A stretch of DNA of 64,000 bases, taken from Kyrpidia spormannii (GTDB lineage Bacteria > Bacillota > Bacilli > Kyrpidiales > Kyrpidiaceae). The stretch's first letter is position 1. Every line of letters starts with the position of its first letter. The notes beneath the pieces were generated by a model. That model did not search any database, had not been told where the DNA came from, and was given only the letters and a program-made list of their open reading frames with translations. This document shows positions 18,411-28,978 of this stretch, piece after piece. A program made the translations under genes and the position numbers. The stretch spans positions 992,001-1,056,000 of the forward strand of contig NZ_CP024955.1 in NCBI RefSeq assembly GCF_002804065.1, read 5' to 3'.

Positions 18411-18615
18411 GGATGAAGGGTGCGGGAGAGGGTGCTGATGCACCGCCGAAGGAGCAAGGGGAGGATTCCCGATCCTCCCGCGAAACTCTCAGGCAAAAGT
18501 ACCGCATCCGGACGAGTCTCTGGAGAGTGCCCCGGCGATGGTCGGGGCCACCAAAGGGGTAACCTGGACGGCCGGCGAATGGACCGGCGGCCATCCGGGC
18601 ATGCTCTCAGGTTGA
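18411..18615 (+). ncRNA. Tandem glycine riboswitch
   Basis: Two consecutive glycine aptamers are recognisable by eye. The first carries GCACCGCCGAAGGAGCAA and CTCTCAGGCAAAAG. The second starts with GTCTCTGGAGAG and carries CCACCAAAGGGGTAA and a second CTCTCAGG with AAGGACAGAGA. Family knowledge: glycine binding to this gcvT-type element turns on glycine cleavage genes. It lies directly before gcvT and is followed by a terminator hairpin, so control is probably by transcription antitermination. Confidence 0.93.
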
Positions 18616-18622
18616 AGGACAG

Positions 18623-18662
18623 AGAGACGGGGATGGGAAACCTCGTCTCTTTGTCATTTTTT
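18623..18662 (+). terminator. Expression-platform terminator of the glycine riboswitch
   Basis: Ten base pairs (18623-18632 with 18641-18650, one G-U) around an 8-base loop, then TTGTC and six or more T. The left arm overlaps the end of the second aptamer, so folding of the aptamer with glycine should prevent this stem and let gcvT be read. Confidence 0.8.
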
Positions 18663-26768: not shown

Positions 26769-27050
26769 GTGATGTGGGACGGACTGAGGGAGCACGCAGT
26801 GACCGCGATGGGAACCCTTCGGCTGATCTCGGGCAGCATCGAGGTGTGTGCCGGCCTCTTGATGTTATATTTTCAGTCCTTGGAGAAAGCGATGGCTATC
26901 AACGCCACCCTTGCGCTCGTCGGTCCTACCGTGCTGATTCTCGTCACGGCCACAGGCCTCGCCGCGATGGCGGAGGAGCTGTCCTGGGGGCGGATGGTCC
27001 TCATCTTCACCGGCGTGGGCCTCATTCTGTGGGGGATTTTTTCCGATTGA
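26769..27050 (+). CDS. yqhV: YqhV-like small membrane protein
   Basis: 93 residues from GTG 26769 (ATG 26772 is equally possible), with AGGAGG upstream. Three hydrophobic segments are visible at about 18-38, 43-65 and 72-90, so the protein should be integral to the cytoplasmic membrane. Length, composition and position between efp and spoIIIAA match B. subtilis YqhV, of unknown function. A CATATATT element at about 26730 resembles a SigE -10 but lacks a partner -35. Confidence 0.75.
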   Translation: MMWDGLREHAVTAMGTLRLISGSIEVCAGLLMLYFQSLEKAMAINATLALVGPTVLILVTATGLAAMAEELSWGRMVLIFTGVGLILWGIFSD

Positions 27051-27165: not shown

Positions 27166-27603
27166 GTGGAAAGCCAAGTGCGGGAAAAGATCGCCTATCT
27201 CAAGGGGCTCGCGTCAGGTCTTGAGGTCGATCCCGAGTCGAGGGAAGGTCGTTTGCTGCACGGTTTGGTCGACGTTTTGGACAGTCTGTCCGCTTCTGTG
27301 GAACACTGGGCGGACAGTCAGCGGGAACTGGAAGAATATGTAAGTCTCATCGACGACGATCTCGGGGATGTCGAGGAGTTCCTCGATCTAGATGCGGATG
27401 ATGAGATTGAGGAGACTTCCTATATTCGTTTGGAGTGCCCGGAATGCGGCGATACCCTTTACCTGGATGAAGGGATCGTCAACGACGAAGGGGTAGCGGA
27501 GGTCGAGTGCCCCAATTGTCATCACACGATGGTCCTGGGAGATTCTCAAGTATCCAGGCAGGATGGTCGGTCGGCGGTGTCATCCAAGCCCCCTCAGGCC
27601 TGA
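27166..27603 (+). CDS. CD1247-like protein with C-terminal zinc ribbon
   Basis: 145 residues from GTG 27166, with GAAAGGGGG upstream. Residues 1-75 are acidic and helical (REKIAYLKGLASGLEVDPES, then LLHGLVDVLDSL). Residues about 90-125 form a zinc ribbon with CPEC and CPNC about 20 residues apart. From memory, a clostridial family with this layout (CD1247 N-terminal domain) is found between efp and spoIIIA; gene order agrees. The role is unknown; a zinc-binding adaptor in sporulation or translation is only a guess. A strong terminator follows. Confidence 0.6.
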   Translation: MESQVREKIAYLKGLASGLEVDPESREGRLLHGLVDVLDSLSASVEHWADSQRELEEYVSLIDDDLGDVEEFLDLDADDEIEETSYIRLECPECGDTLYLDEGIVNDEGVAEVECPNCHHTMVLGDSQVSRQDGRSAVSSKPPQA

Positions 27604-27638
27604 CCGACCCAGCATTAACGAAATCTACACATGTACTT

Positions 27639-27676
27639 CAAGCCCTAGGGTGCCCACCTGGGGCTTGGTTTTTTTT
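27639..27676 (+). terminator. Rho-independent terminator after the zinc-ribbon gene
   Basis: Eleven-bp stem (27639-27649 with 27657-27667, one G-U), 7-base loop, then GG... with eight consecutive T (27669-27676). It separates the efp block from spoIIIA. The stop codon of the minus-strand microprotein lies in its left arm. Confidence 0.9.
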
Positions 27677-27773
27677 GTCTCATATGGACGAAGGTCAGCA
27701 CCATGACCATAAACAACAGGTAAATGACAAGGAACACCACGACCCACTTGATAAACACAGCTAACCAGTCCAT
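27645..27773 (-). CDS. 42-residue single-span membrane protein, unannotated type
   Basis: ATG at 27773 is preceded by GGGGAGGAAC, a strong SD at normal spacing. The 42 codons give MDWLAVFIKW, then a continuous hydrophobic span to about residue 29, then a basic Pro-rich tail (HMRQKKPSPRW) and TAG. The positive C-terminus suggests an N-out, C-in topology, by the positive-inside rule. A promoter-like element with mother-cell sigma features lies 33 bp upstream of the ATG. It is divergent from spoIIIAA with about 160 bp between starts. I know no family for it. The chance of a random ORF is lowered by SD, promoter and one clean membrane span together. Confidence 0.65.
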   Translation of the reverse strand: MDWLAVFIKWVVVFLVIYLLFMVMVLTFVHMRQKKPSPRWAP

Positions 27774-27805
27774 CGATGTTCCTCCCCGCATGGAATGTAC
27801 CGATG

Positions 27806-27833
27806 TATTCTATGCCTCCGAGGACGAGGGGGT
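27806..27833 (-). promoter_or_regulatory. SigK/SigE-like promoter for the 42-residue gene
   Basis: The minus strand has CATAGAATA at 27814-27806, matching the SigK -10 pattern CATAnnnTA and seven of eight bases of the SigE -10. AC at 27833-27832 is 17 bp upstream, the usual place for the SigK -35. Transcription would start near 27798, giving a leader of about 25 bases. Confidence 0.5.
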
Positions 27834-27889
27834 ACGGGCGAATTCCGGCGGAATCCGTCCAGGGATTGGTCTATGAGCAACCCCTGTCC

Positions 27890-27897
27890 CATATGAT
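27890..27897 (+). promoter_or_regulatory. Weak SigE-type -10 candidate for spoIIIA
   Basis: CATATGAT (six of eight bases of the SigE -10) lies 35 bp before spoIIIAA, where a mother-cell promoter is expected from the B. subtilis operon. The -35 region is not convincing. Confidence 0.3.
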
Positions 27898-27931: not shown

Positions 27932-28978
27932 GTGTCCCAGGTCGAGAATCAACGGCGGGCGAAGGAGGGCGAGGGGAACGCGGTCCCCGGGGTGGTGCTT
28001 CGGTTGATGCCCGGGAGGGTTCGGGATGCGCTCCGGCAAGGCTTTTCCCGAGGACTCAGTGGAATTGAAGAAATCCGCATCCGTCGGGAACGGCCGGTAC
28101 AAGTCTGTACGAAGGGACACGAGGGTTTTCTGACCGAAGATGGGCGTTTGGCCCGTTCGGCGGATCTAGGAATGGTCATCTCCACCGAGGAGCTGATGCA
28201 GATCGTTCAGGGGTTGTCCCAATCCTCCCTTTATGCGCTGGAGGAAGAACTGCGCCGGGGGTACATTACTCTGCCGGGCGGCCACAGGGTGGGGCTCGCC
28301 GGTCGGGCGGTGGTGGCGGGAGGGCGGATTCAAACCCAGGTGGATATCACGGGATTGAATTTTCGCATCGCCAAACCGGTTGTCGGTGTTTCCCGAGTCC
28401 TGGCCCCCTGGTTGATCGATGGGATGAGCATGCCCGCCAGCACCCTCATTCTGTCACCACCACAGTGTGGCAAAACCACTTTGCTTCGGGATCTCGCCTA
28501 CCATCTGAGCATCGGGGCCTGGCATCCCCGGGTTCCGCCCCTCAAGGTGGCGGTGGTGGACGAACGATCGGAGTTGGCCGGGACCTTTCAGGGGCGGCAT
28601 TACCATGATCTCGGCCCGCGTACTGATGTCCTGGATGGGTGTCCCAAGGCCGAAGGCATGATGATGATGGTGCGCTCCATGTCCCCCGAGGTGTTGATCA
28701 CCGATGAAGTGGGCGGGGCGGCGGACATTGCCGCACTGATGGAGGCGGTGGGTTCCGGAGTGGTGGTTTTGGCTTCTGCCCACGCCGCCAGCCTGGCTGA
28801 CGCCGAGTCCCGGCCTGCATTGCGCCCCCTGTTGGAGGGGCGGCTCTTCCGCCGGTACGTGGTGCTCAGCCGGCGCCAGGGGCCCATGACGGTGGAGGGG
28901 GTGTTTGATGAAGCCGGTCGGCGATTGAAACGGGACCAGGCTAAAGCCGGAACTGGCCGGCCTGGGCCGGTGGCGTGA
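27932..28978 (+). CDS. spoIIIAA: Stage III sporulation ATPase SpoIIIAA
   Basis: 348 residues from GTG 27932. A PilT/VirB11-like secretion ATPase: Walker A SPPQCGKTT near 175-183, VVDERSELAG, then TDEVGGAADIAAL. Family knowledge: it powers the SpoIIIA-SpoIIQ channel through which the mother cell feeds the engulfed forespore. It is the first of eight genes in the order AA to AH, complete here. The C-terminus ends 24 bp before spoIIIAB. Confidence 0.95.
   Translation: MSQVENQRRAKEGEGNAVPGVVLRLMPGRVRDALRQGFSRGLSGIEEIRIRRERPVQVCTKGHEGFLTEDGRLARSADLGMVISTEELMQIVQGLSQSSLYALEEELRRGYITLPGGHRVGLAGRAVVAGGRIQTQVDITGLNFRIAKPVVGVSRVLAPWLIDGMSMPASTLILSPPQCGKTTLLRDLAYHLSIGAWHPRVPPLKVAVVDERSELAGTFQGRHYHDLGPRTDVLDGCPKAEGMMMMVRSMSPEVLITDEVGGAADIAALMEAVGSGVVVLASAHAASLADAESRPALRPLLEGRLFRRYVVLSRRQGPMTVEGVFDEAGRRLKRDQAKAGTGRPGPVA

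Follow-up and report, generated by a model that had tools for sequence, protein, structure and literature searches.

What does the short interval between the CD1247_N gene and spoIIIAA encode in Kyrpidia spormannii, and could its product have a part in sporulation? An earlier note on this DNA had drawn attention to a minus-strand open reading frame (ORF) of 42 codons here. We examined whether this frame is a gene, when it would be transcribed and what its product might do. The window, by which we mean the whole 64,000-nucleotide stretch analysed, comes from a genome of 3.35 Mb in one contig, and the features of the locus are as follows (window positions).

26769-27050, plus strand: gene for a YqhV-type DUF2619 protein (PF10942, E 1.2e-31)
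27166-27603, plus strand: gene for a protein with a CD1247 N-terminal domain and a zinc-ribbon-like C-terminal part, convergent neighbour (NF045650, E 3.1e-24)
27638-27668, plus strand: terminator hairpin of the CD1247_N gene, followed by T8, in which the small gene has its stop codon (fold z -3.3)
27645-27773, minus strand: small gene with 42 codons, an ATG start and a TAG stop, encoding a single-span membrane microprotein (sequence, conserved frame, synteny, dN/dS, one helix)
27780-27787, minus strand: Shine-Dalgarno sequence GGGGAGGA, 6 nt 5' of the ATG, kept in relatives (sequence)
27806-27814, minus strand: -10 element CATAGAATA, sigma-K type (sequence and comparison with sigma-K genes)
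27832-27833, minus strand: -35 element AC in the context GTACC, with a 17-nt spacer to the -10 (17-18 nt in most family members)
27870-27897, plus strand: sigma-E-like spoIIIAA promoter, TCTAT ... CATATGAT, distinct from that of the small gene (conserved in four family genomes)
27932-28978, plus strand: spoIIIAA, divergent neighbour (TIGR02858, E 3.8e-99)

A small gene under purifying selection

The product of the frame, MDWLAVFIKWVVVFLVIYLLFMVMVLTFVHMRQKKPSPRWAP (42 aa), has a basic tail after its only hydrophobic span, and the coordinates and description of the ORF, Shine-Dalgarno sequence, span and tail given in the earlier note are correct on the sequence. Its further statements on layout also stand: the TIGR02858 match on the plus strand places the frame divergent from spoIIIAA, and the stop codon (27645-27647) falls within the terminator stem of the opposite gene. 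The minus-strand form of this hairpin lacks a U tract, and the transcripts of the small gene and the CD1247_N gene are likely to overlap at their convergent ends. The Rfam scan returned no RNA at the site of the small gene; elsewhere in the window, at 18413-18625, it detected tandem glycine riboswitch aptamers (RF00504).

The frame occupies the same place in all four genomes examined from the order, with 81–95% identity and a dN/dS of ~0.07–0.13 over codons 1–36 (dS 1.28 and dN 0.087 between the window and genome G002), while the intergenic DNA flanking the ORF, Shine-Dalgarno sequence and promoter has diverged and changed in length between these relatives. Conservation of the frame in 4/4 genomes, a dN/dS near 0.1 and homologues at the same site in other families take the ORF beyond chance, and it is almost certainly a protein-coding gene. 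The earlier note's proposal of a real membrane microprotein gene is thus upheld, and the check that it had suggested, conservation of the frame and Shine-Dalgarno sequence at the spoIIIAA locus, came out in its favour, with the frame kept in the four order genomes and at 22/22 Alicyclobacillaceae loci and the Shine-Dalgarno sequence kept in relatives.

Distribution and synteny

DNA upstream of spoIIIAA was taken from 80 genomes of the class and its opposite strand scanned for small membrane ORFs with a Shine-Dalgarno sequence. A homologous ORF divergent from spoIIIAA was found in 22/22 genomes of family f7 (Alicyclobacillaceae by named records; the names of our numbered families rest on named matches), in both scanned f48 genomes and in the one genome each of f28 and f35. 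A longer homologue, with a long Ser/Pro/Gln-rich C-terminal extension, stands at spoIIIAA in one f43 genome (L186 4351-4728, plus strand). The remaining spoIIIAA loci of the 80 genomes had no homologous ORF, with one unrelated ORF in G054. Named relatives also include Sulfoacidibacillus and Ferroacidibacillus. A profile search of 399 genomes matched every listed spoIIIAA-bearing genome of f1, f7, f14, f36 and f48, with two marginal matches in f4, and showed that most spoIIIA-bearing Bacilli lack the small gene. In a 299-genome sample of the phylum, nothing convincing was detected outside the class, the two weak matches lying within frames of 450–525 codons.

Linkage to spoIIIA is broken in f36, in which the small gene lies apart from spoIIIA, adjoining and convergent to a CD1247-yqhV-efp cluster; a large gene now intervenes in the f36 genome G116. 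Other arrangements were also observed. The loci of Alicyclobacillus sendaiensis and A. mali (L005, L006) lack CD1247_N and yqhV and have the order efp - small gene - spoIIIAA, and contigs matching Alicyclobacillus pomorum (L183, L184) hold three additional copies of the spoIIIAA-linked type that are not at spoIIIA. An f14 genome (L269 1410, minus strand) encodes a 72-residue protein that looks like two small-protein copies fused in tandem. As single-helix proteins attract chance similarity, relationships in f14 and among multicopy proteins are less certain than those of the syntenic set.

A predicted sigma-K-type promoter

Of the 37 nonredundant family members, 25 have the motif AC-N16-18-CATNNN[AC]T[AG] in their upstream region, against an expectation of 0.56 (mean of 200 dinucleotide shuffles, maximum 4). 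A strict sigma-E -10 (CATACANT) was present in just 1/37 of these upstream regions. Because the strict sigma-K -10, CATANNNTA, is also rare in the family (1/37), the looser -10 pattern was read as sigma-K type only after calibration on dpaA and yabG, for which we compared the regions upstream of dpaA, yabG and spoIVA in 21 of the same genomes. In B. subtilis, dpaA and yabG are sigma-K genes and spoIVA is a sigma-E gene. The dpaA and yabG genes of the related genomes show the layout AC-N17-CATANNNT[AG], and the -10 of yabG in the source genome is identical to that of the small gene (CATAGAATA), whereas the motif was found in 0/21 spoIVA upstream regions. A weight matrix derived solely from the dpaA and yabG regions of the related genomes gave p<=0.05 for 20/34 small-gene regions versus 0/21 spoIVA regions, the value for the small gene of the window being only 0.03. 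The AC-N17-CATAGAATA of the window has the AC -35, the CATANNNTA -10 and the spacing that define promoters of the sigma-K regulon, and the motif layout is consistent with sigma-K promoter geometry in B. subtilis (PMC517825).

The promoter varies across the family. At position 4 of the -10, Kyrpidia has A whereas most Alicyclobacillus members have T, C or G, which makes the small-gene promoter of the latter weaker than that of dpaA. In f48 and f36, the AC element or the -10 is poor in some members; a CATNTANT[AG]-type -10 can still be recognised in the seven f36 genomes examined, but only three of these have a clear AC. Persistence of the -10 upstream of the relocated f36 gene argues that the promoter belongs to the small gene itself and does not simply come with the spoIIIA control region. 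By comparison, the spoIIIAA promoter at 27870-27897 appears to be sigma-E-dependent. The SigK pattern that the earlier note had read in the window therefore gains support from the motif counts, the matrix and the spoIVA comparison. The small gene very probably stands under a sigma-K-type promoter, and sigma-K control of it is a well-supported prediction.

Predicted structure and topology of the small protein

AlphaFold predicts one helix (residues 2–33, mean pLDDT 83) and a low-confidence tail. Family members are 32–50 residues long, and the alignment of 27 of them (A2) contains the invariant residues W10, V12, F14, L15 and M22 and a membrane core, [RK]W[IVL]VVFL[IV][IV]F, that hardly varies. 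Mean charges across the family are +3.3 and -0.2 in the tail, and +1.1 and -1.0 before the span. A positively charged flank marks the cytoplasmic side under the positive-inside rule, which for this basic tail points to the cytoplasm. The small protein is accordingly predicted to be single-span and membrane-located, with a cytoplasmic C-terminal tail. There was no Pfam or NCBIfam match above curated cut-offs, only sub-threshold matches to membrane-helix models, and no publication describing the family was found by title or abstract. Owing to this absence from Pfam and NCBIfam, sporulation gene catalogues built on these databases will miss the family.

Possible roles

The best explanation of these observations is a vertically inherited sporulation gene, whose existence, selection, synteny and promoter type are all established from sequence. 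We infer that sigma-K would drive its transcription in the mother cell once engulfment is over, and that its product would insert in either the mother-cell membrane or the outer membrane of the forespore, with a short N-terminus and with the basic C-terminal tail on the side of the mother-cell cytoplasm. There its most likely function would be that of a small anchor or adapter in a step of coat or cortex assembly, as YjcZ/SscA-type proteins are thought to do in Bacillaceae. We consider a role in coat or cortex assembly about evenly balanced between right and wrong; no sequence feature favours coat over cortex, mother-cell lysis or germination.

The earlier note had suggested that the protein perhaps acts on the neighbouring channel or on the coat. 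A role as a regulator or accessory subunit of the SpoIIIA-SpoIIQ channel would account for the strict divergent linkage with spoIIIAA in f1, f7, f48, f28, f35 and f43. A channel component should, however, be co-expressed with the sigma-E operon and linked to it wherever present, whereas the small gene lies on the opposite strand behind what appears to be its own sigma-K-type promoter, which on this promoter reading would come into action once the sigma-E channel is in place, and in f36 it sits beside efp-yqhV-CD1247 with spoIIIA elsewhere. Related multicopy proteins are encoded elsewhere in the same genomes, and most Bacilli with spoIIIA do without the small gene. Timing and the f36 relocation in particular make the suggested channel role improbable, and it is not supported here.

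A late-acting alternative, a holin-like or lysis-assisting peptide in mother-cell lysis, would suit the small single span, the basic tail and the sigma-K-type timing, but with no lysis genes nearby and no match to a holin family we think this unlikely. Size, charge pattern and convergent overlapping transcription also recall the hydrophobic, basic-tailed toxin of a type I toxin-antitoxin pair with an antisense transcript. Such a toxin is hard to reconcile with a single conserved locus across the lineage, purifying selection and a sigma-K-type promoter, and neither a sigma-70-type promoter nearby nor a toxin-family match was found, so that this reading is very unlikely. The conserved element might also regulate spoIIIA or CD1247 as a transcript or by interference, its peptide being incidental. 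The overlap with the opposite terminator and the divergent promoters would fit this, but a dN/dS of ~0.1 and the conservation of the protein in families whose flanks are unrelated leave it scarcely credible.

The small gene offers a defined, conserved and small target for the study of spore building in Alicyclobacillus and Kyrpidia. Alicyclobacillus spores spoil acidic juices. Both genera have been reported to lack spoVID, gerM and spoIIB (PMC3533761), on which grounds spore envelope assembly may differ in this branch.

Comparison with known sporulation proteins

The small protein resembles a group of related multicopy proteins of 30–50 residues with the core TRWAVVFLIIFVLFFLLVP, which occur in the same genomes (four in the source genome, L145-L148) and elsewhere in the Alicyclobacillus-Kyrpidia branch (L260-L279) and have no Pfam or NCBIfam model. 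These 'YGVFGGYTRWAVVFLIIFVLFFLLVP' proteins share the [RK]W..VFL[IV]IF core with the small protein, and a few have a similar promoter (AC-N17-CATNNNNT[AG]) upstream. They differ in their many copies, in their position away from spoIIIA, in lacking the basic tail, and in having Pro at the end of the span and Gly/Thr/Cys-rich ends.

Among described families, YjcZ/SscA (TIGR01732) is similar in comprising tiny single-span proteins of spore-formers, both groups having a multicopy branch per genome, and yjcZ is under sigma-K control (PMC517825). TIGR01732 matched neither the small protein nor anything else in the whole source genome (G000). YjcZ/SscA proteins have an N-terminus rich in Gly and a span that ends in Gly; the small protein (alignment A2) shows neither this N-terminus nor a conserved Gly closing the span, and has a basic tail. 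TIGR01732 scored above its cut-off in 92/300 class genomes and was absent from the families with the new profile, except for marginal matches in f4 and f7; some families have neither. This nearly non-overlapping occurrence across bacterial families suggests that, in the Alicyclobacillus-Kyrpidia branch, YjcZ-type proteins may be replaced by the new superfamily. A fuller proposal is tentative and, taken as a whole, rather doubtful: that these tiny sporulation membrane proteins form an undescribed superfamily standing in for YjcZ/SscA in this branch, that the small gene is its single-copy member with a syntenic position, and that this gene is needed for spore envelope assembly in a lineage reported to lack SpoVID.

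SpoVM (PF08183) is likewise a membrane-associated microprotein of the mother cell, but it forms an amphipathic helix, whereas the helix of the small protein is predicted to span the membrane. PF08183 does not match the small protein, and SpoVM is encoded by a separate gene of the source genome (C1:1813075-1813146) and is widespread both among genomes with YjcZ/SscA and among those with the new profile. The sigma-K genes dpaA and yabG resemble the small gene in promoter layout and differ in their products, which are enzymes and not microproteins.
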